From Clostridiales bacterium UBA4039 (GTDB lineage Bacteria > Bacillota > Clostridia > Lachnospirales > Vallitaleaceae): a stretch of DNA of 22,899 bases. This document shows positions 1,958 through 22,899 of this stretch, piece after piece. A model generated the notes under the pieces. The model saw only the letters and a program-made list of their open reading frames with translations, was not told the DNA's origin and ran no database searches. A program made the position numbers and the translations under genes. Location: NCBI GenBank assembly GCA_002382805.1, contig DGAD01000036.1, forward strand, positions 92,266 to 115,164. The letters run 5' to 3'. How positions within the stretch are numbered: the first letter of the stretch is position 1; every line of letters starts with the position of its first letter.

Positions 1958-1974
1958 GGAGAGGAGGAGATCTC

Positions 1975-3030: not shown

Positions 3031-3042
3031 AGAAGGTGAATT

Positions 3043-4248: not shown

Positions 4249-4292
4249 CTGGATAAGATTTTTAAAAAAAGAACATTGAGGAGGAATGAAGA

Positions 4293-4709: not shown

Positions 4710-4730
4710 GAACAGTTGCTTTTATACACC

Positions 4731-4765
4731 CATGCGCTGCCGGTCAGCGCATGATCCCTTTTTAA
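4731..4765 (+). terminator. Hairpin and T-run between pilin gene and pilM (probable partial terminator)
   Basis: A perfect 9-bp inverted repeat (CATGCGCTG at 4731-4739, CAGCGCATG at 4745-4753) with a 5-nt loop is followed by ATCCCTTTTT. The stem is GC-rich in an AT-rich genome. pilM starts only 32 bp further on the same strand, and no obvious promoter separates them, so a leaky terminator or 3' stabilising stem is the likely role: much pilin mRNA, less pilM-to-minor-pilin mRNA. Confidence 0.7.
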
Positions 4766-4796
4766 AGTGGCAAATGGCATGAAGGAGTTGAGCGGA

Positions 4797-5882
4797 ATGC
4801 AAGCACAAAAAGATAAATTGAAAAAAATCAATAAAAATATTATCGCTTTAGAGATGGGTGGGCATTCCATGAAGATTGTCTATGGCGATGTTCATAAAAA
4901 TCAACTCGTCATCAAAGATGTTATTACCCAATCCATACCGAGTGGTCTCTATAGTGATGGAGAAATAAAAGACATTGAATGGTTAAGCAAAAATCTAAAA
5001 AACACATTACGTCAGCATCATATTCACAGCCATCGATGCTTTTGCACAACAGATAGTGGGCAGATGATTATGCGTGATGTCAAAGTGCCAAGTATTAATA
5101 AAGAAAATTTACAAGAGATTGCAAAATTTGAAGTAGAACAGTTTTTGCCGGTAGATATGGAAAACTATAGTGTTCAATCTATTCTTATTGAAGAAACGCA
5201 GACGGGCAATAGTCCTTTTGCTGAGATGTTAGTTACAGCGGTGCCTAAGCGCATGATTAAGCAATATAAGACTTTTATTGATAAAGCCGGGTTAACTCCT
5301 ATGGTTTTAGATACACAGGCTAATGCATTGGGAAAACTTATTGAAAACCAAGAACGTATTAATCGAAGCTCAGACTTTAAGCACATGACAGTAGCGTTTA
5401 TTGATCTGGGATACGAAAAAGTACGTGTGAATATTTTTAAACATGGAAAGTTTCGCTTTCAACGGTTGCTAAACTTTGGAGCTAAAGATATCGATCAGGC
5501 CATTGTGGAATTTACAGAACTTTCTTTGGATGAAGCCAAAGTACGCAAGCAAGAGATACATGACATCAGCCAATATAGCATTGATGAATCTGTGGAAAGC
5601 GGTGTCGCACGAGCGATACAATTTGTCTTAGATCAATGGATGGATGAGATTACAAAAGTGTTTAGATATTATGTATCGCGCAGCAACAATGAAGAACAAA
5701 TTGAGCATATCTATCTATATGGTGGCATATCCAAAATCAATGGGATTGAAGCATATATTGAAAATAGATATAATTTACCCGTTGAAAGAGTGCGAGAAAT
5801 CAGTTCTGTGACCTTAAGCCAGAATGGACAATATGAACTTTCAGAAGTACTTAACGCACTTGGCGTTATGTATCGAAGGTAG
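4797..5882 (+). CDS. pilM: Pilus assembly protein PilM (actin-like)
   Basis: A cytoplasmic, actin-fold ATP-binding protein that binds the N-terminus of PilN and joins the cytoplasmic motor to the PilNO membrane complex. The start of the fold (IIALEMGGHSMKIVYGD, where the phosphate-1 loop lies) and the second phosphate loop (AFIDLGYEKVRVNIF, about residue 200) are visible, with the adenosine-loop region LYGGISKINGIEAYI near the C-terminus. The frame is open from GTG 4767, but AAGGAG at 4782-4787 places the start at ATG 4797 (361 residues, close to the usual 350). pilN starts 8 bp after the stop. Confidence 0.92.
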   Translation: MQAQKDKLKKINKNIIALEMGGHSMKIVYGDVHKNQLVIKDVITQSIPSGLYSDGEIKDIEWLSKNLKNTLRQHHIHSHRCFCTTDSGQMIMRDVKVPSINKENLQEIAKFEVEQFLPVDMENYSVQSILIEETQTGNSPFAEMLVTAVPKRMIKQYKTFIDKAGLTPMVLDTQANALGKLIENQERINRSSDFKHMTVAFIDLGYEKVRVNIFKHGKFRFQRLLNFGAKDIDQAIVEFTELSLDEAKVRKQEIHDISQYSIDESVESGVARAIQFVLDQWMDEITKVFRYYVSRSNNEEQIEHIYLYGGISKINGIEAYIENRYNLPVERVREISSVTLSQNGQYELSEVLNALGVMYRR

Positions 5883-5890
5883 GTGGAGAG

Positions 5891-6448
5891 ATGTTTGATT
5901 ATAATTTCTTTCAAGAAAATGAAGCAAAAAAACCGAAAAAACCGAGTATGATTATTGCGTCAATCATATGTGTAACACTGATACTTGGAATGGTTGGAAT
6001 TGTTGCATGGACATATACGCAAAAGTCAGCGCTCCAGATGAATCTAAACATAACCAAAGATCGTATTCGAGAGATTCAGTCCAACGATGATATTACTCGT
6101 ATTATGGAAAAAGAAGAGCTTCTTGTCCAATTGGAAAATATTCAGCAAAATATTGATGCAGCCAATCAAGTGATTCTATCGGAAAATCAAGTGTCAGAAA
6201 ATATATTGGCACTACTTAGTGACAATATACCGATGGATGCTAATTTGGAAAAGCTTGAAATCATTGAAGGGCAAATGTTTATCGTCGGCCGAGCTGACAA
6301 TCGACCTGCCATTGCTGAATTTGCACATAATCTACGCTTGACGGATACCATTGGAGACGTGTTTATTTCGAGTATTGAACAAGATGAAACCGAAATCCAT
6401 GATTATCAATTCTCCATGCAAGCAGTGATTGGAGGTGACACTCAATGA
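5891..6448 (+). CDS. pilN: Pilus assembly protein PilN
   Basis: A bitopic membrane protein of the alignment complex (185 residues). It has a short cytoplasmic N-terminus beginning FDYNFFQE, corresponding in position to the PilM-binding motif of PilN, one transmembrane helix at about 20-44, a coiled coil at about 50-85 and a ferredoxin-like extracytoplasmic domain. The start codon follows AGGTGGAG. Its stop overlaps the pilO-like start by 4 bp (ATGA), so the two are translationally coupled, as expected for partners that form a heterodimer. Confidence 0.88.
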   Translation: MFDYNFFQENEAKKPKKPSMIIASIICVTLILGMVGIVAWTYTQKSALQMNLNITKDRIREIQSNDDITRIMEKEELLVQLENIQQNIDAANQVILSENQVSENILALLSDNIPMDANLEKLEIIEGQMFIVGRADNRPAIAEFAHNLRLTDTIGDVFISSIEQDETEIHDYQFSMQAVIGGDTQ

Positions 6449-7632
6449 GGATATCAACGCGTGAACATATTTTGCTAATTAGTTTAATTACCTTTATCAT
6501 CCTGTGGGTGGCATTTGTATATATTTTAGAACCGCAATGGATTGAAATGGAAGCTATGCGCCAAGAACTTCGGGTTGAGACGGTAGAACTTGAACGTTTG
6601 GAAACGATGATAAAAAATGAAGAGATGCTCGATCAAAAGATAGAGACAAACTATGTTGCCATTGAACAAAAAGCGGCACAATATTTTAATACAACGCCTC
6701 AAGAAGAGTTAATACTTTTATTTAATGACTTTTTGAATATCCCATTCCTTGAAGGAACTTTGTTAAGTTTTAGAACACCTGAACAGGTGGAGATTGAAGG
6801 GATAACTTTTCAAAAAGACGTTATTGAAATCACAAGCGAAGGTCAATATGGATCTGTTGTGAATGTTTTTAAAAACATGTGGCAGTTTCAAAAACATGTC
6901 AATATGACATATGCCAATCTTAGCAAAAAATCGATTGATGAAGTAGTAGGTCAGATGGAGTTAGCCGTATATACACTTGTAGCCGATGTAAACATAAAAG
7001 ATCAACTTTATGAATGGTATATTGATGATCTGTTTTATAAGGAAGATCCGTTTGCCCCTTATCAACCAAATCCAGAAGCTGTACGCTATATTTATACACA
7101 AGAAGATCAAGGACTATTTAATTATGATTTGAATTACGCATTTACAGATATTGAAGGCCATTATATGGAAGCTGAGATTAACGAGTTTTTACAAGCGGGA
7201 TATTTGTTTTTAGACCCTTATATGACATTTAAACCGGATACACCTATAACCCGTGGTGAATTTATCGTTATGATGGATAAAGTATACGGATGGGAAAGTG
7301 TCAATGAAGAAGATACCATGGACTTAACATCCTTTGATGATTACGATGAGCTAGGAAGTCTTGAAAATGCCTTTGCAAAAGCTATATATCGCGGATATAT
7401 CAGTGGAATCATTGAAGGATATACAGATAATACATTGCGCCCGAGAAATCCTATCACTTATGGTGAGATTGAATATATTATGAATAACATCAAAGGAACC
7501 CAAGATTATTCTTTTGCCAATATTGGTAATGCTTTAGTTGCAGATAAAGGTGTACCTGCCAAAAATTGGTCAAACCTTAATGGACAATTAACAAAAGCAG
7601 AAGCTGTCTACTTATTATACTATCATAAATAA
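6445..7632 (+). CDS. pilO: PilO-like pilus assembly protein fused to three SLH repeats
   Basis: The N-terminal half has the PilO plan: a short cytoplasmic start, one transmembrane helix (about 8-28), a coiled coil (about 35-80) and a ferredoxin-like domain to about 185. PilO normally ends there at about 200 residues; this protein has 395. After a linker rich in Asp, Pro and Tyr it carries three S-layer-homology repeats: about 233-282 (with ITRGEF), 295-350 (with GIIEGYTDNTLRPRNPIT) and a weaker one at 357-395. SLH repeats bind pyruvylated secondary wall polymers, so this fusion could pin the pilus machine to the cell wall. The two halves lie in one uninterrupted frame with no sign of a frameshift. 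Overlaps pilN by 4 bp. Confidence 0.85.
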   Translation: MRISTREHILLISLITFIILWVAFVYILEPQWIEMEAMRQELRVETVELERLETMIKNEEMLDQKIETNYVAIEQKAAQYFNTTPQEELILLFNDFLNIPFLEGTLLSFRTPEQVEIEGITFQKDVIEITSEGQYGSVVNVFKNMWQFQKHVNMTYANLSKKSIDEVVGQMELAVYTLVADVNIKDQLYEWYIDDLFYKEDPFAPYQPNPEAVRYIYTQEDQGLFNYDLNYAFTDIEGHYMEAEINEFLQAGYLFLDPYMTFKPDTPITRGEFIVMMDKVYGWESVNEEDTMDLTSFDDYDELGSLENAFAKAIYRGYISGIIEGYTDNTLRPRNPITYGEIEYIMNNIKGTQDYSFANIGNALVADKGVPAKNWSNLNGQLTKAEAVYLLYYHK

Positions 7633-7663
7633 GCTTGTGATTCGTGAAGAGTAGGTGAAGAAA

Positions 7664-9022
7664 ATGAATGTGAAAATACGTGGGGAAAAAGGATCAACAT
7701 TTGCATATATTCTCGTCGTGATGGTTGTCTCCTTTTTGTTAGTAGCAGGTCTTATTCAAATAACAACCAGTGAAAACAATCAGGTGCGCTATCAGACGAA
7801 CGAGATGAAAGCGTATTATATCGCTCGTGCAGGTGCGGAATCTGTTGCAATGGAACTAGAACGAATGGATAATGCATATTATCAATACTTTTATAGCGGA
7901 CAACAGATTACCCAGGCAAATAATATGCTAGATGGTGTAGGAGATGCCGTTGTTAGTGTTGAATGTGTTGACGAAGATGGATTCTACCGTATCATCTCCA
8001 CAGGAACATATCAAGAGGCGCAAGCGACGGTTAAAATCATGATGGAATACCGTGAACGCTCGAATCTGGATTTTGGAGTCTATGCAAAAGAAACAATGGA
8101 TGATGTGAGTATCAAGGACTTTGATGGTGACTTGGGCTCAGGAGGAGATATAGAATTTAAGCCCGCAGGAGATGAAGATGGAGTTACTGGGACGGTGACA
8201 CGAAATACTGCAAATAATATTACTATTGCAGTACCTGAGATTTCAGATATCTATGATGCCTTGGATCAGTCAGGGACATTTATTGACCCAAGTCAGGCAG
8301 GTATAAAACTTGTTAAACAAACAGGTGGTGGACTTACACCGGCAGAGATGATGATGTTTGGCGAATATGATATAGATGTGGATATTCGAGAATCAATGAT
8401 TATCAGCCGATGGGATGATGATTATACTGGAAGCATAGCCGTTAATACGGATTTTGCAAAGTACTATATGCAGCCCTATGAAGATCATGAAGATACGTTT
8501 GAGTTGTCAACATCCAATCCCGGCGGCGCAGAAAAATGGCTTATCCTTTATCTTGAAGGTGAGGCGAATTTTGGAAAAGATGCGACGTTGGACATATATG
8601 GGAACCATAACGTAATGGTTATCGTAGAAGATGGGATTGAAATTTCAGGAACTATTAATGTGCATAACGATAATCGGATATGGTTTTATATAATGGATAT
8701 ACCAGAAGATAATCAAGTAGATTTGACCATTGTCAAAAATACGCTTATTGGTGTCGCTGGACATCCGGAATTATTGACCTTTTATTTAAATCCGCTTACT
8801 TCGCGTCCGATCGTGGCAGAGATAGATAGTAATCCGGATTTTTACGGATTTATCATTGGTCCAGAGGCAATTGTAAACTTAAAGAACGGGGCGACAACAG
8901 TTTATGGAGGAATCTATGCCAAAGAAGTTAATATTGAGGCTTCATCGTCCTTTCATCAACTGAATCCGTCCGATCCAAATGTGATTTTATATAAAGAAAT
9001 GGGAATTGCATATTGGGAATGA
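7664..9022 (+). CDS. PilX-like pilus assembly protein with large C-terminal domain
   Basis: The N-terminus (GEKGSTFAYILVVMVV..) is a prepilin-like hydrophobic helix at about residues 10-32, with a likely cleavage after the Gly in EKG, but without the Glu5 of true pilins. This matches PilX N-terminal-type proteins, followed by the conserved AYYIARAGAE segment. The rest (about 150-450) is rich in beta strands, Gly and Asp, with repeated short motifs such as FYGFIIGPEA and VYGGIYAKEV that suggest a beta-helix near the C-terminus. It probably serves as a tip or minor pilin-complex component. The frame is open from GTG 7655, but AGGTG at 7653-7657 favours ATG 7664 (452 residues). It is followed by two minor pilins. 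Confidence 0.8.
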   Translation: MNVKIRGEKGSTFAYILVVMVVSFLLVAGLIQITTSENNQVRYQTNEMKAYYIARAGAESVAMELERMDNAYYQYFYSGQQITQANNMLDGVGDAVVSVECVDEDGFYRIISTGTYQEAQATVKIMMEYRERSNLDFGVYAKETMDDVSIKDFDGDLGSGGDIEFKPAGDEDGVTGTVTRNTANNITIAVPEISDIYDALDQSGTFIDPSQAGIKLVKQTGGGLTPAEMMMFGEYDIDVDIRESMIISRWDDDYTGSIAVNTDFAKYYMQPYEDHEDTFELSTSNPGGAEKWLILYLEGEANFGKDATLDIYGNHNVMVIVEDGIEISGTINVHNDNRIWFYIMDIPEDNQVDLTIVKNTLIGVAGHPELLTFYLNPLTSRPIVAEIDSNPDFYGFIIGPEAIVNLKNGATTVYGGIYAKEVNIEASSSFHQLNPSDPNVILYKEMGIAYWE

Positions 9023-9039
9023 GAAGAGGTGGAAATGCT

Positions 9040-9456
9040 ATGTCAATAAAAAGAAAAATCATGCATCAAGCTGGATTTACCCTACTTGAATTGATTTTGT
9101 CCATTGCATTATTATCGATTATTATGATTGCAGCTTTTAGTGGATTGCACTTTGCATATAACACGCTATTTGCTTCAAAAGAGTTGTCAAAGCAGGCGTA
9201 TACTATACAAAAAGAATATGAAGGGGAACTGGCTAAAGTGCGACAATTGCCCACGGATACAACCGGCGCGACATATTTGGCTTTAGATGCATCGCGCGTA
9301 ATTGATGATCAGCCGATTGTATTTGATTGGAGTAGTGGTACATTGGTTAACTTTAACGCTCAAGGCTTAACGATTATAAAAGAAGGTAAAGGTGGCGATT
9401 ATCTTGAAGAGAGTATATATATGTTTATTCCGTTATATACAGAAGAAAGTCCATGA
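9040..9456 (+). CDS. Minor pilin / pseudopilin (PilV- or GspI-like)
   Basis: A prepilin with basic leader ending HQAG|FTLLELILSIALLS: cleavage after Gly, Phe+1 and Glu+5 are all present, followed by a hydrophobic helix. The rest (about 100 residues) has no named domain. Probably a minor pilin that starts assembly at the tip. The frame is open from TTG 9013 inside the preceding gene, but the site AGGTGG at 9027-9032 points to ATG 9040, 17 bp after the upstream stop (138 residues). Its 3' end overlaps the next gene. Confidence 0.8.
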   Translation: MSIKRKIMHQAGFTLLELILSIALLSIIMIAAFSGLHFAYNTLFASKELSKQAYTIQKEYEGELAKVRQLPTDTTGATYLALDASRVIDDQPIVFDWSSGTLVNFNAQGLTIIKEGKGGDYLEESIYMFIPLYTEESP

Positions 9457-9943
9457 CGAGGTTGGATTTACATTAATGGAAATTGTGACAGTCATTGCTA
9501 TTATGGGGATTGTTATAGCCATGATTTTTGGTTTTTTGGTCTTTAATGTAGATGGAATCAACTATGGTTCCGGGCAAACCCAAGAACAGGCAAATCTAAG
9601 AATGGCAGCACTTCGTATTACGCAAGAGGTACGTAATAGTGTGGACATCGAGTTATCGGATACGTCTATGCTACCTGGCATGGACTATGAAATCTATGTA
9701 GACAATAATGTCGTCATGCTCGACGACGGAAGTTCGACGATTTCTTTATCGGCAGATGGAATGCAAAGCGCTGCGTTTGAACTGAAAGAGGATAATTCCA
9801 GGTACCTTCTGATTATTACCTTAGACACAAAAGGGAGTACATTAGAAACAGAAGTACTGTTAAATAATATATCAACTATTGATGCAGCAGCCACAACACT
9901 TGGTGAACGTGTAGGATTTACCCTTCCTCCGGTTGCGCCATAA
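9404..9943 (+). CDS. Minor pilin / pseudopilin (PilW- or GspJ-like)
   Basis: A prepilin with leader ending DEVG|FTLMEIVTVIAIMG, with Phe+1 and Glu+5 intact, then a hydrophobic helix and a globular part of about 130 residues. The pattern (long helix, then NYGSGQTQEQANLRMAALRITQEVRNS) resembles PilW/GspJ. No ATG is available upstream of the cleavage site in this frame. TTG at 9404, with AAAGGTGG at 9388-9394, is the best start (179 residues, leader of 21) and overlaps the preceding gene by 53 bp, implying translational coupling; GTG 9392 is the alternative. Last gene of the pilus operon; its end overlaps nagZ, on the opposite strand, by 26 bp. Confidence 0.78.
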   Translation: MKRVYICLFRYIQKKVHDEVGFTLMEIVTVIAIMGIVIAMIFGFLVFNVDGINYGSGQTQEQANLRMAALRITQEVRNSVDIELSDTSMLPGMDYEIYVDNNVVMLDDGSSTISLSADGMQSAAFELKEDNSRYLLIITLDTKGSTLETEVLLNNISTIDAAATTLGERVGFTLPPVAP

Positions 9944-11326: not shown

Positions 11327-11398
11327 GCGTGAGTGGCTCAGTGGTAGAGCATCGCCTTGCCAAGGCGAGGGTCGCGGGTTCGAATCCCGTCTCGCGCT
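11327..11398 (+). tRNA. tRNA-Gly (GCC anticodon)
   Basis: A full cloverleaf can be drawn. The acceptor arm GCGTGAG pairs with CTCGCGC (one G-U), the D arm holds GGCTCAGTGGTAGAGC, the anticodon stem TCGCC/GGCGA encloses loop TTGCCAA with anticodon GCC, and the T arm is GCGGG-TTCGAAT-CCCGT. The discriminator base is T, and CCA is not encoded. Length 72 nt. It stands alone between nagZ and pgsA. Confidence 0.97.
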
Positions 11399-13757: not shown

Positions 13758-14633
13758 ATGATGTTATTGGTAAGGGAACAAGTGGCTCGCTACAAGGGAA
13801 ATACGTCAAAAATCAACTCAATACAGCAAATGAAAAATTACATGATAAGAAAAGGTTATAGCCCAAAGACTATCAAGTCGTACGTTAATCACATCAAGCA
13901 TCTTGACCATGCTTTAAATGGTAAGATGTCACCTGAGAGTATAGAAGATTATCTGTTGACCCTACTTAATGAGCGACAGCTAAGTCATGCGTATGTCAAT
14001 CAGATGATTAACGCAGTAAAAATATATTCACAGTTTCGCTTTAAGTTAAATAGTGAACGATTACATGGATATATACGCCCAAAATCTGTTCATAAGCTAC
14101 CCAAGGTTATGAGTAAAGATGATGTCAAAAGATTGTTTGAAGTTACTGAAAATCTAAAGCATAAGACAGAACTGATGTTAGCCTACTCATGTGGTCTACG
14201 CGTCAGTGAAGTGGCAAATCTAAAAGTAACAGATATAGATAGCAAACGTATGGTGGTTGTCATTCATCAAGGAAAAGGACGAAAAGATCGAATTACTGGC
14301 CTTTCAACAAAAATGCTCGTACAACTTCGAGAATACTATAAGCAATATAAGCCTGGTGAGTGGCTCTTTGAGAACGCCACTAAGTCAGGTCCTATTAGTG
14401 TGCGCTCATTACAGAATGTCTTTCATCAAAACCGGGAAAAAGCAGGCATCAAGAAAATCTACTCTTTCCATGCCTTGCGTCACTCCTACGCAACACACTT
14501 ACTCGAAAGTGGCGTCAGCCTGCGACACATACAGCAACTACTGGGACATAAAAGTTCACGGACAACAGAACGCTACACCCACGTATCCACACAAGAGATC
14601 CAGAAGATTATCAACCCCCTGGACCTAATGTGA
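13758..14633 (+). CDS. XerC/D-like tyrosine recombinase at head of cassette array (non-IntI type)
   Basis: A 291-residue phage-integrase-family enzyme. The N-terminal SAM-like DNA-binding domain spans about 22-105 (SPKTIKSYVNHIKHL) and the catalytic domain about 115-285. The full catalytic set is visible: R148 (GLRVSE), K173 (GKGRKDR), H238 and R241 (HALRH), H264 (LLGHKSS) and Y273 (RYTHVS). From K173 to H238 there are 65 residues, as in XerD. IntI integrases have an extra domain of about 35 residues in this interval, and it is absent here. Start ATG 13758 follows AGGGAGG. The gene ends 66 bp before the first cassette boundary and runs in the same direction as the cassettes, whereas most intI genes are divergent. 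Context says it is the array's recombinase; sequence says it is not a standard IntI. A second integrase elsewhere cannot be excluded. Confidence 0.9.
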   Translation: MMLLVREQVARYKGNTSKINSIQQMKNYMIRKGYSPKTIKSYVNHIKHLDHALNGKMSPESIEDYLLTLLNERQLSHAYVNQMINAVKIYSQFRFKLNSERLHGYIRPKSVHKLPKVMSKDDVKRLFEVTENLKHKTELMLAYSCGLRVSEVANLKVTDIDSKRMVVVIHQGKGRKDRITGLSTKMLVQLREYYKQYKPGEWLFENATKSGPISVRSLQNVFHQNREKAGIKKIYSFHALRHSYATHLLESGVSLRHIQQLLGHKSSRTTERYTHVSTQEIQKIINPLDLM

Positions 14634-14636
14634 TTT

Positions 14637-14707
14637 ATTGTTGCAATGCGTAAAGCCTACACATATATGTTGTATTGCCGCAATGCTACAATATAAAAGT
14701 TATACGC
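14637..14707 (+). other. attI-like primary attachment site
   Basis: The core GTTATACGC at 14699-14707 is the exact reverse complement of GCGTATAAC (15104-15112), the R'' end of cassette 1, as expected when cassette 1 was inserted as a circle between G14699 and T14700. No attC structure lies upstream: the recombinase gene occupies that space. The site also has two imperfect direct repeats, ATTGTTGCAATGC (14637-14649) and ATTGCCGCAATGC (14674-14686), 11 of 13 identical and 37 bp apart, likely protein-binding sites. A TACAAT at 14687-14692 could be part of a weak promoter for the cassettes, but no good -35 is visible. Confidence 0.75.
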
Positions 14708-14969: not shown

Positions 14970-15105
14970 TCAACGAAACGAATGGAACGACTTATTCATC
15001 AACTCGATTCCGTGAGCGTTCAAACCGATGATAGTTATTGGATGTTGACGCAATCGAGCTGAATGATGAAGAAAAAGACCGCCTGAAGAGAATAGGATAA
15101 GCGGC

Positions 15106-15232
15106 GTATAACACCCAGTTTATGCCAAACAGATTGCAAACCGAGTCGGAATCGCATAGGGCGTTCGCAAGCTCACAGCCATCAGCTCATCCTGTAAGCG
15201 CCCTGTCGTCGTAAACTGGCGGTCCGTTATGT
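15106..15232 (+). other. attC site 1 (long type, subfamily B)
   Basis: R'' is GTATAAC (15106-15112) and R' is GTTATGT (15226-15232), 127 bp overall. An inner stem CCAGTTTA/TAAACTGG (15115-15122 with 15212-15219) is perfect. The central part closely resembles attC 8 (for example CGAGTCGGAATCGCATA). It ends cassette 1. Confidence 0.85.
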
Positions 15233-15285
15233 GAAAGTTCAGACTAGATTGTCTAAAGAATAAATGGATCAATGGAGGTGATATT

Positions 15286-15756
15286 ATGCTTAGTGTAGAA
15301 AAGAAATGGGAGAAGATTTCGAAAGAAGGCAAGTACAAATATGTGTATTTGTCAGTTCCGATTTTTAGAATCATTCCAGTAATATTGCTACTTTCAATAA
15401 TATATAATTTTATTTATGAAAAAGATGCATTTGGAATCTTTGGTATTGGGCTAAGTGTTTTAGTGAAAGGTTCTGTAGGATATTGCTTGGGTGTTGTAAT
15501 TGCTAAACTAGAATGGAATTTCTACAATGCTCTAATCTCTAGGGAATATAGTGAGATTAGGAATATACGTAATCAGTATATGTTGATTTACGGAATACTT
15601 ACGGCTGGTTGTACAATATTGATATCAATGATTACATTTCCGTATACTAGCGGTTTTGAGGTGATTAAATTATTTACATGGCCTGTATTTGGAGTGATTT
15701 TTAGTTTTGGTATGTGGTTATCATTTTCTTCAGAAGCGAAAGGTTTTCTTGGTTAG
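15286..15756 (+). CDS. Cassette 2: four-helix membrane protein of unknown function
   Basis: A 156-residue protein with four predicted membrane helices (about 25-44, 51-73, 99-118 and 128-148) and a short charged N-terminus. Between helices 2 and 3 lies a cytoplasmic or external loop NFYNALISREYSEIRNIRN. No motif allows a family name. Start ATG with TGGAGGTGAT upstream. The gene fills cassette 2 and lies 60 bp after its start; its stop is about 40 bp before attC 2. Small membrane proteins are frequent in cassette arrays and may act as effectors or in envelope stress, but that is only an inference. Confidence 0.75.
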   Translation: MLSVEKKWEKISKEGKYKYVYLSVPIFRIIPVILLLSIIYNFIYEKDAFGIFGIGLSVLVKGSVGYCLGVVIAKLEWNFYNALISREYSEIRNIRNQYMLIYGILTAGCTILISMITFPYTSGFEVIKLFTWPVFGVIFSFGMWLSFSSEAKGFLG

Positions 15757-15797
15757 TATACAAGGTATGATGTTTGAGTACTTCCGTCTGAACCTTC

Positions 15798-15871
15798 ACA
15801 TAACAGCATGTTGACAACATGTACAGGAAATTAGAAGGATGTCCACGTCGTCAACATGCGGAACGTTATCG
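15798..15871 (+). other. attC site 2 (short type, subfamily C)
   Basis: R'' ACATAAC (15798-15804) and R' GTTATCG (15865-15871), 74 bp. Inner arms GCATGTTGAC and GTCAACATGC pair perfectly. The loop region shares GTACAGGAA and AAGGATGT with attC 4 and attC 7. Confidence 0.85.
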
Positions 15872-15901
15872 GGCATCAATTTGCTCTGAAAGGAGGTCAT
15901 A

Positions 15902-16825
15902 ATGAAGAAAATTATCTTAACAATTTCATTTTTGATATTTGTTCTTACTTCATGTAGTTCGGTGAAAGATATTGATCATGTTGAACAATACAAGGAAGAG
16001 CTAGCAGAACTGAATCAGAAGTTAAATCAACTTGAGGAAGAAAACGAACTACAAAAGGTTTTGATATTAGAAATCGAAGAAAAAAATCAAGAGTTGTTAG
16101 AAAGAAATTTAGATCTTCAAAATGATATGGAAATTAGAACCGATTTTATTGAAGATACGTATCAAGAAATTACAGGTGTGAAAGTCTGTGATAAGTCAAT
16201 ACTTATGCTTACTCCATATACTGACTCAGTAGACCTAGGGAGAATTGAAGAAGATGAGGTCAAAGTTATTGCTACAGGGATGAATGATTATCAGGAAAAT
16301 TGGGCACTTGTTGAGGTTTTAAGCAGGCTGGGAGAAATGAAATATGGATACATTAAGACAGAGGATTTGTCAGAAGGAGTTTCGGGTAAGCATGATTACG
16401 ATTCAAAAAATGTAGATATTTCATTAGACACAATTTCTATAGGAGACAATATGGAAGCGGTTATTAATCGCTATGGTCATGATTATTATGTGGTTAAGGA
16501 TAGTAATGCGTATCAAATTGGTTATAAAACAGATAATCAGGGAGGACATATTGTTTTTACAATTGATAGTAGAGTCTTACGAGTCAGGGGTATGAGGACT
16601 GTAAGTAGTGAGTATAAATTGGATAATGGAATAGGTGTGGGAATGCCCTTAGCTTCAATTTATGATGTTTATAATGAAGATGAAGTGATAAACAATGAAG
16701 GACATTATTTTATTGATGTTAGCGATGGTTTTCTTATTTCTATACAAGTGAATGATGATGAAACAGATGTAGCGACGATATCACGAATTGATGTAGAATA
16801 TGATTGGGGTTATGTATTCAAATAA
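15902..16825 (+). CDS. Cassette 3: lipoprotein with coiled coil and SH3-like segment
   Basis: A 307-residue secreted lipoprotein. The signal peptide ends in a lipobox LTSC with the lipidated Cys at 18. Residues about 28-80 form a strong heptad coiled coil rich in Glu, Leu and Asn. Residues about 92-155 look like a small bacterial SH3-type beta domain (with ENWALVEVLSRLGEMKYGYI and a closing strand). The remaining part (about 170-307) is a repeated beta/alpha unit with GDNMEAVINRYG and GVGMPLASIYDVY, similar in plan to domains that start with a G-x2-x-x-V turn in other Gram-positive surface proteins. Function unknown; wall-facing location is likely. ATG with AAAGGAGG upstream. Ends 16 bp before attC 3. 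Confidence 0.78.
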   Translation: MKKIILTISFLIFVLTSCSSVKDIDHVEQYKEELAELNQKLNQLEEENELQKVLILEIEEKNQELLERNLDLQNDMEIRTDFIEDTYQEITGVKVCDKSILMLTPYTDSVDLGRIEEDEVKVIATGMNDYQENWALVEVLSRLGEMKYGYIKTEDLSEGVSGKHDYDSKNVDISLDTISIGDNMEAVINRYGHDYYVVKDSNAYQIGYKTDNQGGHIVFTIDSRVLRVRGMRTVSSEYKLDNGIGVGMPLASIYDVYNEDEVINNEGHYFIDVSDGFLISIQVNDDETDVATISRIDVEYDWGYVFK

Positions 16826-16841
16826 GTCGCTAATTGACGCC

Positions 16842-16968
16842 CTATAACATACGATTTCCAACACTCAATTCGCTAACCGAGTCGCACTTGCATTAGCCCA
16901 CCCAAAGGGTCCCGGGCATGAGCAAGCACTGTAAGCTCATTGGCGTCGTAAACCGACGAACGTTAGGT
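16842..16968 (+). other. attC site 3 (long type, subfamily A)
   Basis: R'' CTATAAC (16842-16848) and R' GTTAGGT (16962-16968), 127 bp. Shares ACATACGATTTCCAACAC and the 3' arm GCGTCGTAAACCGA with attC 5, 6 and 9. R'' differs by one base from the reverse complement of the start of cassette 3. Confidence 0.85.
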
Positions 16969-17003
16969 ACAATAAAAAGCTAGTTAATTATAGGGAGAAG
17001 ATT

Positions 17004-17981
17004 ATGGATATATTAGAATTGATAAAGAAGCAAGTTGAGCAGGCATTGTTAATTGATGAGTCAATAATGGGCTTAGAATCAGTTGTAACTCATATTGAAA
17101 GAGCTGAATACTTAATGGATTTAGCAAATACTGAAGATGATATTCATTTTTTCACAGATGTCATATATAGGACTAATCATGCATACGAAGGGATTCTTAA
17201 AGAAGCATATATTTGTCTAACCGGAAAGTCATCTAAGAATGTTACACCATATCAAATAGAAGACCATTTACTTAATAATGATATCTTGAAGGACAGAGTT
17301 ATTGAGCTACTAAAGAATTATAGAACTAATTGGCGAAACACATCTACACACGACTACAACTTGTTTTTCGATTCCAGTGAAGCATTATTAGCAATCTCTT
17401 CTGTGTCTGCTTTTGTTTATATTTTGTTACAACAAATATTAGGTAACTTATATCTAATAAAACAACAAAAGAATTTTGAAAACTTGAATCAAATACTAAA
17501 AAGTGAATTAACAGGGAATTATAATACCCTAAGTATTGATGATAAAGTAATAGCAATATTAAAGATTTATAAGGGATATAAGGGAATTAGTACTAAAGAA
17601 GGTAACTCAATAATTGATAGCTTTAGAGAAGTTTTATATCAAGTTGGTGCATTTATAAGTTCAGTTGATGATACTTTGACAGTTCAAATAGAGCCTGAAG
17701 TGAGTATGAAAGAAAGACATTTTTCTCCAGATATGATTGTGATTGATTCAAATGGAGACAAAGTAGTAATAGAATTAAAGATTTTCAATAAAATACGGAG
17801 AACAAGGGCGTTCGAAGCACAAGTGTTAGCATATATTACTTATACAGGAGCTGTAAGTGGCATTGTATTGCAAATCCCCCAAAACTTGGATGAAGAATTG
17901 GACTTAAAGGAATACTCTAGCGTGTTGGAAACGAATAATGGTAAATATAAAATATATAATGTGTATCATCAATCAAAGTGA
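17004..17981 (+). CDS. Cassette 4: putative HEPN-motif plus PD-(D/E)XK nuclease protein
   Basis: A 325-residue protein, probably a defence effector. The N-terminal half (about 1-155) is all-helical and holds the HEPN RNase signature R-x4-H as RNTSTH (R111, H116), in the last helices of the domain as in known HEPN proteins. The C-terminal half has a restriction-endonuclease-like core: an upstream Glu (E231), SPDMIVID with D243, then VVIELK with E257 and K259, followed by a helix with FEAQVLAY (Q273, Y277). The two together suggest an RNase-type sensor or effector joined to a DNase. I recognise each motif but not the combined family. Start ATG follows AGGGAGAAG. It occupies almost all of cassette 4 and ends 25 bp before attC 4. 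Confidence 0.72.
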   Translation: MDILELIKKQVEQALLIDESIMGLESVVTHIERAEYLMDLANTEDDIHFFTDVIYRTNHAYEGILKEAYICLTGKSSKNVTPYQIEDHLLNNDILKDRVIELLKNYRTNWRNTSTHDYNLFFDSSEALLAISSVSAFVYILLQQILGNLYLIKQQKNFENLNQILKSELTGNYNTLSIDDKVIAILKIYKGYKGISTKEGNSIIDSFREVLYQVGAFISSVDDTLTVQIEPEVSMKERHFSPDMIVIDSNGDKVVIELKIFNKIRRTRAFEAQVLAYITYTGAVSGIVLQIPQNLDEELDLKEYSSVLETNNGKYKIYNVYHQSK

Positions 17982-18006
17982 TTTGTAAGTTTCCGCTTTT
18001 TACTGC

Positions 18007-18079
18007 ACCTAACAGACTGTTCCCAACATGTACAGGAACAAGGAGGATGTACACGTCGGGAACAGCGGGAACGTTAGGC
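18007..18079 (+). other. attC site 4 (short type, subfamily C)
   Basis: R'' ACCTAAC (18007-18013) and R' GTTAGGC (18073-18079), 73 bp. Inner arms CTGTTCCC and GGGAACAG pair perfectly. The loop shares GTACAGGAA with site 2. Confidence 0.85.
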
Positions 18080-18109
18080 GACACTTAATCTGATTAATGG
18101 AGGATTGAA

Positions 18110-18679
18110 ATGTATAAGATTGAAATTAAAGCGGGTAAATACAAAGAACATAAGGACGATGACTATACAGAAGAAATAAAGAGTGAACAATTTGAAGAGA
18201 ACTCTGTAAAGATTATTATGACAACTGTGTTAAGAGAGCTTGATAATCAAAAATCTAGAAAGACTGGGTTTGAGAATCGAGCAGGAATTGCTTTGGCATT
18301 AGTTGGTGCTTTGTCTTTAGTAGTTATTGAGAAACTAAAGATTTCTGAGATAGTATCTAGAATGTATGTACCTTTCGATTTCTTTGATTTTATATACGTT
18401 TCTTCTGGAATATTATTTTATTTTACATTTATAACTTCGATTATATGTTTATTACTTGTGATTAATTCACGTAAATATAATACAGTTGATCCAAAGTATT
18501 TTGGTGACGAATATATTGCTGAAAGTGAGAATGTTACTGAATACTTCTTAGTTAGATATTATCGTGATCTTCTTTTAAATCATCAAGATTGTAACGATAT
18601 TCTAGCTTTACAATACACTATTGGAATATTATCATTAATGATTTCAGTGGTTATGCTAATTATTAATTTAAATCTTTAG
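18110..18679 (+). CDS. Cassette 5, gene 1: three-helix membrane protein (SLATT/Pycsar-TM-like plan)
   Basis: A 189-residue protein with a charged N-terminal tail of about 55 residues, then membrane helices at about 59-75, 93-119 and 167-187. The first helix is preceded by QKSRKTGFENRAGIALALVGAL, which resembles the entry into the first helix of SLATT and Pycsar-type effector membrane domains (a tail, a K/R-rich turn, then a Gly/Ala-rich helix). Those proteins open membrane pores after a phage signal. The resemblance is at the level of layout only; no nucleotide-sensing domain is attached, and the central loop (about 120-165) is unlike them. ATG with TGGAGGATTG upstream. A second small gene follows 15 bp downstream in the same cassette. 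Confidence 0.65.
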   Translation: MYKIEIKAGKYKEHKDDDYTEEIKSEQFEENSVKIIMTTVLRELDNQKSRKTGFENRAGIALALVGALSLVVIEKLKISEIVSRMYVPFDFFDFIYVSSGILFYFTFITSIICLLLVINSRKYNTVDPKYFGDEYIAESENVTEYFLVRYYRDLLLNHQDCNDILALQYTIGILSLMISVVMLIINLNL

Positions 18680-18694
18680 AGAGGAGGATAAACT

Positions 18695-18865
18695 ATGGGA
18701 GATAATGATGTTAACAAGAAGAAAGTGAAGCCTTTGCCAACTTTAACAGAGAAACACGAAAGACCTACATATAAATCAAAGAATTTTTCACGTGATTCAG
18801 AAAGACGAGCGGAACTTAGTGAAAAGGAAATAGTAGAAAAACTAAATGGGCAAACTGACGATTAA
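18695..18865 (+). CDS. Cassette 5, gene 2: 56-residue charged peptide
   Basis: A small gene of 57 codons with an excellent site GAGGAGG 7 nt before ATG 18695. The product is hydrophilic and Lys/Glu/Arg-rich, with a Pro-containing N-terminal part (KKVKPLPTLTEKHERPTY) and a helical C-terminal part (RRAELSEKEIVEKL). It lies 15 bp after the membrane-protein gene and stops 5 bp before attC 5, so it is translated from the same cassette transcript. It could be a partner or regulator of that membrane protein. No family recognised. Confidence 0.7.
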   Translation: MGDNDVNKKKVKPLPTLTEKHERPTYKSKNFSRDSERRAELSEKEIVEKLNGQTDD

Positions 18866-18870
18866 GCATC

Positions 18871-18998
18871 GCCTAACATACGATTTCCAACACTGCGATC
18901 GCTAACCGAGTCAGGCCTGCATTAGGTGTTCGGCTGAAGCCTCACAACCATGAGCAGACCTTGTAAGCTCCTTGCGTCGTAAACCGAGGACGTTATGC
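18871..18998 (+). other. attC site 5 (long type, subfamily A)
   Basis: R'' GCCTAAC (18871-18877) and R' GTTATGC (18992-18998), 128 bp. The sequence between is nearly the same as attC 6 and attC 9 (ACATACGATTTCCAACAC, CTAACCGAGTC, AGCTCCTTGCGTCG). Confidence 0.88.
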
Positions 18999-19038
18999 GA
19001 CACTAAAAGCTGTTTTACTGTCAATATAGGAGGTACAT

Positions 19039-19434
19039 ATGAATATATGGTCAACGATTGGTATAGCATCAATAATTTCCTTAACGATTAGTTTTTTATT
19101 TGACATGATTAAGGGTAGGTACTCATTAAGGTTTGAAAGAATTATGTTAGAGAAAGAGTCAAGATATCGGTCAATTTTAGTTTTCATGTCCGTAATTTTA
19201 GATGAATCGAATTTCAAGCATATATCCTCAGAATATAAGCCTAGTAAAGAAACTGACATTGTTAGCTACTATATTGAAGAAGTCCGCTTGCATGTTATGT
19301 TTTCAAGGATATATGCGAGCTCAGGCGTTATAAAGTCTATAGAAACCTTTCTTGACAAGCCGAATAAAAGCAATTTTTTGATAGTTGCCAATGAAATGCG
19401 GACTGATTTATGGGGAAAGAAAAGGATTCGATAA
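19039..19434 (+). CDS. Cassette 6: single-pass membrane protein of unknown function
   Basis: A 131-residue protein with one N-terminal membrane helix (about 5-24) followed by a cytoplasmic domain of about 100 residues, mostly helical and basic (KGRYSLRFERIMLEKESRYR). Such short N-anchored proteins with a helical tail are common in integron cassettes; no enzyme motif is visible. ATG with AGGAGGTACAT upstream. It begins 46 bp after the cassette start and ends 18 bp before attC 6. Confidence 0.7.
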   Translation: MNIWSTIGIASIISLTISFLFDMIKGRYSLRFERIMLEKESRYRSILVFMSVILDESNFKHISSEYKPSKETDIVSYYIEEVRLHVMFSRIYASSGVIKSIETFLDKPNKSNFLIVANEMRTDLWGKKRIR

Positions 19435-19452
19435 ACTTCCGCTTTTAGCATC

Positions 19453-19581
19453 GCATAACATACGATTTCCAACACTGCGATCGCTAACCGAGACGGGGTC
19501 GCATTAGCGGTTCAGCTGAAGCTTCACACGCATGAGCTCGCCCTGTAAGCTCCTTGCGTCGTAAACCGAAGACCGTTAAGC
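19453..19581 (+). other. attC site 6 (long type, subfamily A)
   Basis: R'' GCATAAC (19453-19459) and R' GTTAAGC (19575-19581), 129 bp. Its interior is close to attC 5; differences are concentrated near the tip of the fold. Confidence 0.88.
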
Positions 19582-19616
19582 GAAAGTTATTATTCGCGCA
19601 TTGAAAGGAGAAGGTC

Positions 19617-20507
19617 ATGGAAGAAACTAAAATAAAGTGGGCAGTATATTATGATGGTGAAACCACCCAAGAAGTTCACTATACTGAACTTGATGAAGAT
19701 TTGTATTTGCAGAAGTATAAAGGAAATCTGACTTGCATTAATGGATGTGAGGCCAAGATGAAGTTTACAGAAAGAAAAGATGGCACAAAGTTTTTCAGTA
19801 CTTGGAATGGTGAAGGTAAATTACATGAAGAGGGAGTTTGTCCATTTCATGTAAAGTATAAAGATAGTGTTGGAAGAAAGCAGTTAGAAGAAGTTCATGA
19901 GAAGTTGGCGTTATCGGATAAACAGATTGTGAGTTCAATACGAAGTAAATTTAGGGCACTAAAAGATAAGTCTACTGAAAAGAAAGACGAGAGAGGAACG
20001 ACAAGGAACACTAAAGACAAGGGAAAAAGTAGTGTAAATGTATACTCTGATAGTGGCGAAACCACTTCAGAATATAATGGTAGGGTCAGAATTGGGAGCT
20101 TAGATGCGAATCTGATTACTGACGATTACATCAACCTTCGTAAATGTATATTTGGTAAGATTAATCATATACATATTGGAGAATCAAATGATAACAAGTC
20201 TAAGTATTTATACCTAAACCTTAGGTGTAAAGAAACTAATATAAGTGTTTATTTTCCAGCAGCATTTTATTATTCCGAGAATAATAGCGTAAACAAATTT
20301 GAAATGTTTTCGAGTAAGTTAGAAGCAATTCAAAACTCTGAAAAGTCTATGATATTTGTAGGTGTAGGCTTTATTAAACCTAAAAAGAATGGAAAAGGTT
20401 TGAATTTAGTCATTTTGGATAAATCTCACTTTATGATTAATGAAACATCATATGATTCAATAAGATTAAATGGTGCAATAAAAGATGATATATACAAATA
20501 TAAGTAG
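19617..20507 (+). CDS. Cassette 7: zinc-finger-like protein with basic linker and C-terminal beta domain
   Basis: A 296-residue soluble protein in three parts. Residues about 35-80 contain a probable zinc site C40, C44, H70, C75, H78 (C-x3-C ... H-x4-C-x2-H, with CPFH), similar in layout to the N-terminal finger of competence protein CoiA. Residues about 100-155 are a highly charged, low-complexity linker (KSTEKKDERGTTRN). Residues about 160-296 are beta-rich with conserved aromatic residues and could be an OB-type nucleic-acid binding fold, but this is only a guess from the pattern. Start ATG with GAAAGGAGAAGG upstream. Sole gene of cassette 7. I do not recognise the full protein. Confidence 0.62.
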   Translation: MEETKIKWAVYYDGETTQEVHYTELDEDLYLQKYKGNLTCINGCEAKMKFTERKDGTKFFSTWNGEGKLHEEGVCPFHVKYKDSVGRKQLEEVHEKLALSDKQIVSSIRSKFRALKDKSTEKKDERGTTRNTKDKGKSSVNVYSDSGETTSEYNGRVRIGSLDANLITDDYINLRKCIFGKINHIHIGESNDNKSKYLYLNLRCKETNISVYFPAAFYYSENNSVNKFEMFSSKLEAIQNSEKSMIFVGVGFIKPKKNGKGLNLVILDKSHFMINETSYDSIRLNGAIKDDIYKYK

Positions 20508-20532
20508 GTGGTAAGAGGTCATAATAACCTTC

Positions 20533-20606
20533 GCTTAACAGAGAATTGACGATATGGACAAAAAATCGGAAGGATGTCCACGACGTCAATTCACGGAACG
20601 TTAGAC
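20533..20606 (+). other. attC site 7 (short type, subfamily C)
   Basis: R'' GCTTAAC (20533-20539) and R' GTTAGAC (20600-20606), 74 bp. Inner arms GAATTGACG and CGTCAATTC pair perfectly. Shares GGAAGGATGTCCACG with site 2. Confidence 0.85.
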
Positions 20607-20640
20607 AAAACATGAGACTTGGTTTCGAAAGGAGAGCACA

Positions 20641-21288
20641 ATGAAGTACAAAATGAAGCGGTATGTCGAACGCATTAGGGAACTGATTGATGAAGCGGAT
20701 GATGTTCTAGATTCAACAGTTCAGGATACATATGGTGATTATATAGGTGAGAAAGTGACCCTAAATGCATGGCTTACCAAAGTTAAGAATATAGTGCAAG
20801 TCGTTTTTGGAACTCATAGTATTCATAAGCGTGAGTTGAACAAGTTAACTGGGCAAGTTTCCAAAACTTCGCACGTCAAGGCTATAAAAGGCTTACTAAT
20901 TGGAGCGCTTGATGATGTTGAGAACGGTTTTATAGAAGGTCAGGAGTTTGTAATAGCCGGCGAGATATTTGATAGTGTGCTTGAAGAAGCAAAGCACTTG
21001 TTGAAAGCACAACATAAAGATCCTGCTGCTGTTTTGGGACGTGTTGTAGTTGAAGATACTTTGAAACGAATTGCAAGGCGTGAAGATATAACTGAAAATC
21101 TTAAAGCCGCGCGTCTTAATGATGAGTTGAAGAAACAAGGAGTATATTCTACTCCACAGTGGAGATTGATACAATCATGGCTTGATGTAGGTAACTCAGC
21201 AGCACATGGAAAGTTTGATGATTATGATTTTAATGATGTTGTGAATATGCTTAATGGAATTGAGCAGTTTATGGCAAATACATTTTAA
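20641..21288 (+). CDS. Cassette 8: DUF4145/HEPN-like protein
   Basis: A 215-residue all-helical protein. The C-terminal third has the DUF4145/HEPN-like signature WRLIQSWLDVGNSAAHGKFD (GNSAAHG at 184-190), preceded by a conserved GRVVVEDTLKRIAR helix (about 133-146). The Arg of the catalytic HEPN motif R-x4-6-H is not in place, so this copy may be a non-catalytic or structural HEPN relative. The N-terminal 90 residues are helical with no known motif. Such proteins are frequent in defence islands, often as RNA-sensing or toxin parts, which is consistent with the cassette context but not proof. ATG with GAAAGGAGAG upstream. Confidence 0.68.
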   Translation: MKYKMKRYVERIRELIDEADDVLDSTVQDTYGDYIGEKVTLNAWLTKVKNIVQVVFGTHSIHKRELNKLTGQVSKTSHVKAIKGLLIGALDDVENGFIEGQEFVIAGEIFDSVLEEAKHLLKAQHKDPAAVLGRVVVEDTLKRIARREDITENLKAARLNDELKKQGVYSTPQWRLIQSWLDVGNSAAHGKFDDYDFNDVVNMLNGIEQFMANTF

Positions 21289-21307
21289 ACTTGGCGTCTC
21301 ATAATTC

Positions 21308-21434
21308 GTCTAACACCCGTTTTACGCTATAGGGCTCGCAAACCGAGTCGGAATCGCATAAGGCGTTCGCAGGCTCACAGCCATAAGCTCATCCTGTAAG
21401 CTCCCGTACAGCGTAAACCGGCGGTCCGTTAGCT
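21308..21434 (+). other. attC site 8 (long type, subfamily B)
   Basis: R'' GTCTAAC (21308-21314) and R' GTTAGCT (21428-21434), 127 bp. Inner arms TTTACGC and GCGTAAA pair; next to them a T/C mismatch interrupts a CG pair, giving the kind of extrahelical position that marks attC folds. Interior close to attC 1. Confidence 0.88.
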
Positions 21435-21465
21435 GACATAATATATTTCGGAATTGGAGGAGAGA

Positions 21466-22677
21466 ATGGGGTCTTACACTAATTTTTCGATTAATGGATA
21501 TAGTATCTTTGAAGATAAGAATTCAGTTAGTAGCGATATACTTGCTTTGTTCACTGAGGAGATGAGAATTGACAATATTGAAGAAGAACAACATGTCATT
21601 AAGTATGTGACAAAGTCATCTGTCTTTGCAAAGCGCCTAAGTATTATGGGCTATACATATGATAGTGTTATTGATGACTTCAATAACACATTTGATTATG
21701 ATGGTTACTTTGAACTTTATGATAATGATGATGTACCACAAGAAGTTGATTTTGACTTTTTCAGAGAGATACTGTCAACTCTAGTATTGAAAGGAGTAGA
21801 GCCATGGGATTTATACGATAATCTAGTACCACTAATAGAACTAGGTATAGATGGTGATGATTATCTCTATAATTATGTTTTTGAGAATGCTGCTGAATAC
21901 ATGGAATATCCATTTGGTATACCCTTATCAGATCCAATTAACCTTCTTGTAATGATTTTAGACCTCTTTGAATATAAAGGTGAAGTTGTTTATGATATTG
22001 GGCAGGTGGTTGAAAATGGATGGGTTGAAGATTGTTTATTTGCTGAAGTGGCTAAGTTGAGAAAGCTTCAATCCCATTATACTTATGGGAGTATAATAGT
22101 AATTACTGAAGGTAATTCGGATAAGATTGTATTGGAAAAAGCACTAAGATACTTATATCCTGAATTGTCAGACTTATATACATTTTTTGATTTCAAATCT
22201 TCGAAAGCCCAGGGGAGCACAAGTGAAGTCATTAGAATTGCTAAATCATTTAAAGCTTCAAAAATTATTAATAAGACAGTAATACTATTAGATAATGATA
22301 CTGCAGGTCTAGAAGCACTGGAAGTACTTAACGGAATTGGTTTACCTTCTAATATTAGGGTCATGATATATCCATATCTTGATTCTTGTAGGAGCTATCC
22401 GGCAATAGGTCCTAATGGCATTGAGACTATGGATATCAATGGCCTTGCATGTAGTATCGAAATGTATTTAGGAAGTACTATTTTACAGTTGGAAGGTAGA
22501 AGAATACCAATACAATGGAAGGGTTATTCTGAGAAGATGCAACAATATCAAGGTACTATAACCAAAAAAGGTTATGTTCAAGATAAGTTTCATGAGCTTT
22601 ATAGGGATAATCCTAGTGATATAGATTGGGATGATTTAAAGAAGATATTAGATTGCGTTATCGATGCCTTTTCTTAG
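21466..22677 (+). CDS. Cassette 9: HEPN/Toprim-associated domain protein with TOPRIM nuclease domain
   Basis: A 403-residue protein of the HEPN/Toprim-associated family, which occurs in defence loci. The N-terminus MGSYTNFSINGYSIF is the family's opening. Residues about 1-200 are mixed with helical segments. A TOPRIM fold follows: the first strand IIVITEG with catalytic Glu215 (TEGNSD) and the second strand VILLDNDTAG with the metal-binding pair Asp276 and Asp278, as in OLD-family nucleases, topoisomerases and primases. The frame is open back to TTG 21454, but GGAGG at 21456-21460 and the conserved MGSY start point to ATG 21466. It is the only gene of the largest cassette (1403 bp). Substrate unknown; nucleic-acid cleavage is the best inference. 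Confidence 0.82.
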   Translation: MGSYTNFSINGYSIFEDKNSVSSDILALFTEEMRIDNIEEEQHVIKYVTKSSVFAKRLSIMGYTYDSVIDDFNNTFDYDGYFELYDNDDVPQEVDFDFFREILSTLVLKGVEPWDLYDNLVPLIELGIDGDDYLYNYVFENAAEYMEYPFGIPLSDPINLLVMILDLFEYKGEVVYDIGQVVENGWVEDCLFAEVAKLRKLQSHYTYGSIIVITEGNSDKIVLEKALRYLYPELSDLYTFFDFKSSKAQGSTSEVIRIAKSFKASKIINKTVILLDNDTAGLEALEVLNGIGLPSNIRVMIYPYLDSCRSYPAIGPNGIETMDINGLACSIEMYLGSTILQLEGRRIPIQWKGYSEKMQQYQGTITKKGYVQDKFHELYRDNPSDIDWDDLKKILDCVIDAFS

Positions 22678-22712
22678 ATTGAGTTTTTCGAAAGGGGTCA
22701 ATATATTACGTC

Positions 22713-22837
22713 AGCTAACATACGATTTCCAACACTGCGATCGCTAACTGAGTCGCACCTGCATTAGGTGTTCGCAAGTTCACAACCATGAGCAGGCACT
22801 GTAAGCTCCTTGCGTCGTAAACCGAAGAACGTTAGCA
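22713..22837 (+). other. attC site 9 (long type, subfamily A)
   Basis: R'' AGCTAAC (22713-22719) and R' GTTAGCA (22831-22837), 125 bp. Nearly the same as sites 5 and 6 in the interior. The last 62 bases of the window belong to the start of cassette 10, with no gene start visible. Confidence 0.88.
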
Positions 22838-22899
22838 GACATAACAACTCTCGAAATGTCTGTCTAATATAGCAATACAATATATAGTCTCTCGGAATT

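Follow-up and report, generated by a model that had tools for sequence, protein, structure and literature searches.

The locus raises the question of whether a tyrosine recombinase that lacks the insertion of integron integrases (I2) can operate an array of attC cassettes. In the sections of PMC7790495 consulted, the I2 helix is described as necessary for cassette capture and as present in no other protein; the integron integrase (IntI) is considered there to have gained recombination of folded, single-stranded attC via I2, with the intermediates missing. IntI is picked out by the IntI-specific domain in the parts consulted of PMC9668308 and PMC2426708, and the consulted part of PMC9024848 reports for Firmicutes one complete integron and a few CALINs (attC clusters without an integron integrase). 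An integron-like subgroup of simple tyrosine recombinases is described in PMC8138268, in which the insertion is tied to integron function and, in the portion consulted, attC arrays are unmentioned for insertion-less members.

The stretch analysed here (the window) comprises 22,899 nt of Clostridiales bacterium UBA4039, a draft genome of 3.5 Mb in 56 contigs. The first-pass annotation offered two readings of its recombinase and cassettes: an integron-type system derived from another branch of tyrosine recombinases, or a classical integron that had lost its intI and kept a neighbouring gene. A tRNA gene lies upstream of the recombinase (11327-11398), and the region 278-9943 further upstream is what we take to be a type IV pilus operon. 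The recombinase gene is as follows.

13758-14633, + strand: proposed array integrase, an I2-less tyrosine recombinase of 291 aa (profile scores, tree, K-to-H spacing)

All six catalytic residues that had been named (R148, K173, H238, R241, H264, and Y273) were found in the protein, and the claim that it leaves no room for the IntI insert was borne out. K173 and H238 are 65 residues apart in the window recombinase, whereas the spacing is 105-107 in 25 IntI proteins (the value for one was taken from the residue numbers of a PDB chain), which indicates that I2 is absent. The spacing is 64-65 in the 41 family members of our set, 66-68 in two XerA proteins, and 69-72 in six Xer proteins. The protein scored under every curated NCBIfam cut-off listed. 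The best model was archaeal XerA (190 bits, cut-off 220); scores were lower for integrase_gron (TIGR02249; 172.9 bits, cut-off 265) and the XerC and XerD models TIGR02224 (165.5 bits, cut-off 335.15) and TIGR02225 (159.2 bits, cut-off 329.6); a Xer candidate elsewhere in the same genome (contig C30) also fell slightly below, at 327.8 bits. In the genome profile search, the integrase_gron alignment split in two (2-180 and 239-314) around the absent insert. The AlphaFold model has a mean pLDDT of 86.1, with residues 267-274 around Y273 below 50. The PDB entry that this model matches with the best E-value is the integron integrase 2a3v; by sequence the closest PDB entry is the archaeal Xer 4a8e, and 2a3v is second. 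The HARP domain was considered as a stand-in for I2 and rejected; PF07443 was present in only 5 of the 44 family members scanned and absent from the window protein, and thus it is no general substitute. Many family members (e.g. P0145 and P0162) carry an N-terminal extension that the window protein lacks, and it is this extension that PF07443 matches in the five.

In a maximum-likelihood tree of 89 chosen proteins, 30 of which came from the 80 homolog loci described below, insert columns were excluded. IntI formed one clade with support of 100/100, separate from the window recombinase. The array-head family, recombinases linked to IS91, and most viral recombinases of the set were placed on the opposite side from IntI (85/83), and Xer and XerA fell outside this grouping (95/98). 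The array-head family was not monophyletic in the tree (4 changes), some viral recombinases being nested inside it. Profiles and tree together place the protein below the NCBIfam cut-offs and outside the IntI clade. The label 'XerC/D-like' of the first-pass annotation is loose: both Xer and XerA branch outside, and the top NCBIfam model, archaeal XerA, was matched at a sub-cut-off score.

Nine complete cassettes follow the recombinase gene on the same strand, and the array runs off the contig, whose last base is the end of the window. They were compared with those of G415, a one-contig complete genome listed as the same species as the window source. In the list below, the core rule denotes the bases at which the first 9-mer of a cassette is the reverse complement of the R'' box of its own attC; each attC runs to the next core.

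14634-14702, + strand: attI region, identity with G415 68 of 69 bases, a different cassette being next in that genome
14699-15225, + strand: cassette 1, no convincing gene, attC from 15104, core rule 9/9
15226-15864, + strand: cassette 2, ORF 15286-15756, attC from 15796, core rule 9/9
15865-16961, + strand: cassette 3, ORF 15902-16825, attC from 16840, core rule 8/9
16962-18072, + strand: cassette 4, ORF 17004-17981 (PDDEXK_3-like), attC from 18005, core rule 8/9
18073-18991, + strand: cassette 5, ORF 18110-18679, attC from 18869, core rule 9/9
18992-19574, + strand: cassette 6, ORF 19039-19434, attC from 19451, core rule 9/9
19575-20599, + strand: cassette 7, ORF 19617-20507, attC from 20531, core rule 9/9
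20600-21427, + strand: cassette 8, ORF 20641-21288 (weak, sub-cut-off DUF4145), attC from 21306, core rule 8/9
21428-22830, + strand: cassette 9, ORF 21454-22677 (HEPN/Toprim N-terminal domain), attC from 22711, core rule 9/9
22831-22899, + strand: start of cassette 10, truncated by the contig end, core GTTAGCAGA

The rule thus holds at 9/9 bases in six complete cassettes and at 8/9 in three. The attCs are 77-78 or 129-133 nt long, and similar sites occur on another contig (C14) of the same genome. Among 59 genomes of relatives, the source genome included, the cassette 8 protein was found in two and the cassette 4 protein in one. The cassette 9 protein, with its HEPN/Toprim N-terminal domain and weak RT-Toprim matches, is a possible anti-phage cassette. 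An anti-phage role of the cassettes in general was rejected, as such matches were obtained for this protein alone among the eight cassette proteins scanned.

The core G/TT lies at 14699, separated by 65 nt from the gene end at 14633. It had been claimed that a core just past the stop codon matches the end of cassette 1, and this was confirmed: GTTATACGC (14699-14707) and GCGTATAAC (15104-15112, in the attC closing cassette 1) are exact complements. One correction concerns the description of this core as attI-like: GTTATACGC is the start of cassette 1, and attI proper lies to its left. The attI region adjoins the recombinase gene and contains GCAATG arms at 14643-14648 and 14680-14685, that is, 56 and 19 nt 5' of the core; the same attI is followed by another first cassette in G415. 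Direct and inverted arm repeats scored 13.9 of 16 over 27 attI regions as compared with 12.9 in sequence resampled by a first-order Markov model rather than an exact dinucleotide shuffle (p 1.6e-8); the repeats are weak in many single regions, including that of the window, whose score was reached by 11 of 60 resamples. We discarded the idea that the attI arm and the attC L' arm of one array have sequence in common, since they matched at 7.1 of 17 positions and those of different arrays at 7.0 (p 0.66). A promoter search gave 6 promoter-like matches as compared with 5.3 in shuffles, no excess.

The comparison with G415 is the strongest evidence that the cassettes are mobile. With respect to REARRANGEMENT within the species, the window and G415 are ~98.5% identical from 499, the start of the aligned G415 stretch retrieved, to 14702, with one extra stretch of ~150 bases near 12857. 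They diverge at 14703, the first mismatch after attI and four bases into the core, beyond which G415 carries another cassette. Window cassette 1 occurs at three places in G415 with 93-96% identity: as the fifth cassette of the array, again further along, and once at a separate locus. Window cassette 8 occurs at two places, directly after the first copy of cassette 1 (99.9%) and at another separate locus (99.5%). At all four junctions where a core leads into a moved cassette, identity over 40 nt was 1.0; it was 0.975-1.0 ahead of the end core at five of five, as compared with 0.30-0.525 outside the cassettes; the cassette boundaries therefore coincide with cores. The comparison of these two conspecific genomes, in which cassettes differ in place, shows what appears to be site-specific cassette rearrangement. 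Profile searches of both genomes detected no IntI over the cut-off. The relatives G016 and G018 likewise have a cassette stretch of 581 nt in common, at 98.5% identity.

The two separate G415 arrays showed no recombinase motif in the 20-kb stretches read and no recombinase match from the genome search. Each starts at a site whose core is preceded by GCAATG at 19 nt, in one of them also at 56 nt; these are the two distances of attI. One site resembles attI at 12 of 14 bases, as did 20 of 2000 random 40-nt windows. The other (the C site) matches at 11 of 14, a modest likeness that 141 of 2000 random windows equalled. We read these arrays as probably acted on in trans by a single enzyme that has this attI specificity.

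We scanned species genomes with eight homologs and used the best 80 loci among the 574 relatives listed, 62 of the 80 being Bacteroidota by title. Same-strand downstream chains of at least two cassettes, detected by the core rule alone, were present at 27 of these best 80 loci (24 Bacteroidota, two Firmicutes, and one Nitrospirota by title), and upstream chains at 6; in other phyla among the best 80, the recombinase gene was present and no chain was seen. When the loci followed by 2.5 kb of DNA or more were considered, chains were found at 22 of 33, as compared with 6 of 99 stretches resampled by a first-order Markov model, which is not an exact dinucleotide shuffle; in this test, the rule produced one spurious link as well, preceding the attI of the window. 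A chain was present within 4 kb at 19 of 33 family loci but at only 1 of 51 other recombinases (Fisher 4e-9), these being the loci that qualified among the 52 of 80 viral loci entered. Minus-strand chains, which occurred at 31 of the 80 loci, were dropped as a control because the core rule is mirror-symmetric. The first core lay 36-109 nt past the recombinase stop at 17 of the 27 chain-bearing loci and at 179 to 4529 nt at the others. Among 13 near-relative loci not linked to IS91, five (G016, G014, G041, G013, and G018) had rule-obeying attCs downstream, and the other eight had just 0.2-1.8 kb of downstream DNA. The association of the recombinase with attC arrays thus recurs in relatives. Homologs away from arrays exist (11 of the 33 loci with enough downstream DNA had no chain, and there is a sister branch linked to IS91), but they are not the rule. 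Comparison therefore shows that recombinase, putative attI, and attC cassettes stand in a fixed order and that this layout recurs.

The absence of IntI was evaluated by profile searches. No IntI over the cut-off was found in 96 relatives, the source genome included, in a search in which no control matched. Over 299 genomes of the phylum a single one had an IntI over the cut-off, showing that the profile search can find IntI; this true IntI (locus L155 in G218) lies on a short contig. None of the 25 named genomes carrying a homolog contained an IntI over the cut-off, and a chain was seen in 11 of them. The possibility raised beforehand that a true IntI resides elsewhere in the same genome was thus searched for, and none was found over the cut-off.

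These results bear on who moves the cassettes. It could be supposed that this is a classical integron without its former intI and that the adjoining recombinase gene remains by chance. The cassette core rule is indeed that of classical integrons, and two relatives (G002 and G019) contain attC-like matches with no recombinase homolog at E <= 1e-30, so that attCs do occur there without a nearby homolog. However, members of this recombinase family stand at the head of arrays in many genomes, the attC geometry described below departs from that of IntI sites, the window source and G415 differ in their arrays with no IntI over the cut-off in either, and such an IntI occurs in just 1 of 299 genomes of the phylum. 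Because of the geometry, the recurrence, and the rearrangement without IntI over the cut-off, we rejected this explanation as exceedingly improbable; the corresponding reading of the first-pass annotation is hard to hold with IntI over the cut-off in 0 of 25 homolog-bearing genomes. It is nearly as improbable that the cassettes are moved by another cellular recombinase such as a housekeeping Xer, with the array-head gene serving as a marker or regulator; the separate Xer-type gene on contig C30 and further tyrosine recombinases elsewhere in the genome might speak for this. Against it, the linkage between recombinase and array is conserved, the catalytic residues are retained, 288 of 291 residues are identical in the G415 protein, and the first core follows closely upon the stop codon (36-109 nt at 17/27 loci). 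We infer that the array-head recombinase itself moves the cassettes.

To characterize the sites, 91 attCs from 26 family loci were compared with 46 from 13 IntI loci, the window and its near relatives being excluded. Family sites were taken from chains of at least two cassettes and IntI sites from chains of at least three opposite to the intI strand (13 of 80 loci); the removal of duplicates and of sites with a stem score < 6 reduced the family set from 109 to 91 and the IntI set from 61 to 46. L-stem pairing was optimal with no bulge in 63 of 91 family sites and in 4 of 46 IntI sites (Fisher 3.5e-12). A bulge in the L'' arm gave the best pairing for 15 of the 91 family and 34 of the 46 IntI sites, and one in the L' arm for 13 and 8, respectively. 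By the same criterion, six of the nine window attCs have no bulge and three have one. From these counts, attCs of the I2-less family mostly lack the L-stem bulge, although the geometry is not absolute, as 28 of the 91 family sites carry one. In IntI sites, this bulge is where the extrahelical bases read by I2 lie. Family sites have additional unpaired bases on the R' side: the surplus was 3 or 4 in 73 of 91 sites, whereas none of the 46 IntI sites fell outside -3 to 1 (rank test 1.3e-21); in the window attCs it was 2-5, as read from the stem scores.

Which strand folds was examined from the pairing. A good L stem was found in 82 of 105 sites that had been identified without using the stem, as compared with 236 of 2100 pairs formed by exchanging arms between arrays; in a milder control with arms swapped within one array, 669 of 2020 reached the stem score. 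Each of the first ten L-stem positions is occupied by all four Watson-Crick pairs in one site or another. Under neutral scoring, the imperfect pairs of the family sites were G-T on the bottom strand in 114 cases, on the top strand in 16, and on neither in 44; the corresponding numbers for IntI arrays were 27, 3, and 42. By locus, the bottom-strand excess was 17 against 3 with 6 ties (p 0.0026), and the window attCs had 14 bottom and 1 top wobbles. The bottom strand also folds better in all nine window attCs, in one by just 0.1 kcal. The ratio of 114 to 16 thus suggests that the bottom strand of attC folds, and strand-biased mutation could be the source of part of the excess.

It might be argued that attC is used as double-stranded DNA, as dif is by Xer, and that the hairpin symmetry merely reflects two inverted binding arms. 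The enzyme lacks I2, its nearest PDB sequence is an archaeal Xer, and many family L arms are near-perfect inverted repeats, all of which would be compatible with this view. We nevertheless regard it as unlikely: the G-T asymmetry (114 vs 16, by locus 17 vs 3) parallels that of IntI arrays (27 vs 3), the R''-R' complementarity is maintained between the attC of each cassette and its own start, and the extra unpaired bases are one-sided.

These sequence comparisons are best read as a second integron class whose integrase lacks I2 and whose attCs have their own geometry, in agreement with the first reading of the annotation, which gained from the recurrence, the separate IntI clade (100/100), the attC geometry, and the cassette differences within the species. 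That the window contains a recently active, integron-type cassette system driven by an I2-less tyrosine recombinase seems to us highly probable. We also consider it likely that Bacteroidota, Firmicutes, and probably further phyla harbour such a class, that its I2-less integrases recombine folded bottom-strand attCs of distinct geometry, that it arose beside the IntI clade or keeps a state preceding I2, and that I2 is not required for single-stranded cassette capture. Under this second-class model, the recombinase would use the GCAATG-type arms to bind attI as double-stranded DNA, whereas attC would be bound as its folded bottom strand; cutting would be at G/TT. The 3-4 extra unpaired bases between the bottom-strand R' and L' arms would mark the strand, replacing the extrahelical bases read by I2, and their one-sidedness would serve as the orientation mark. 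New cassettes would enter at attI, and excision followed by re-entry would reshuffle the array.

The system shares with classical integrons a recombinase beside attI, a cassette array, the core rule, the G/TT boundary, and the bottom-strand wobble excess. It differs in that its recombinase lacks I2 and lies outside the IntI clade, that its attCs mostly have no L-stem bulge but an R'-side surplus, and that the gene is codirectional with the cassettes, whereas the 13 IntI control arrays, a set chosen so, are opposite to intI. Unlike a CALIN, it has a recombinase at its head and has been rearranged. The recombinase resembles Xer and archaeal XerA in fold, catalytic residues, and length of the K-to-H segment, but it belongs to a separate branch, scores under the curated cut-offs, and is tied to attC arrays. 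The open-licence literature searched yielded no account of such a system; one may be in print in subscription papers or preprints. An I2-less branch heading mobile attC arrays would make the published account of I2 directly testable and provide a comparison for integron origins. Surveys that demand the IntI domain would then undercount integrons, above all in Bacteroidota and Firmicutes; such a search would probably class the window array as a CALIN, provided that its attC model detects these sites.

Two further arrangements were observed among the homologs. At one locus (L046 in G009), the attI of the homolog is immediately followed by a second recombinase (3402-4181; 38% identical), as though it were the cargo of a first cassette. 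In the sister branch, the recombinase gene precedes an apparent IS91-type transposase gene (L053-L056, also L059, L062, and L146, in the last of which it is annotated). At L053-L056, attC-like hairpins are present at both ends, facing outward, and the end motif GTTGNAC / GTNCAAC co-varies, as though the IS91-linked element followed the cassette rule.
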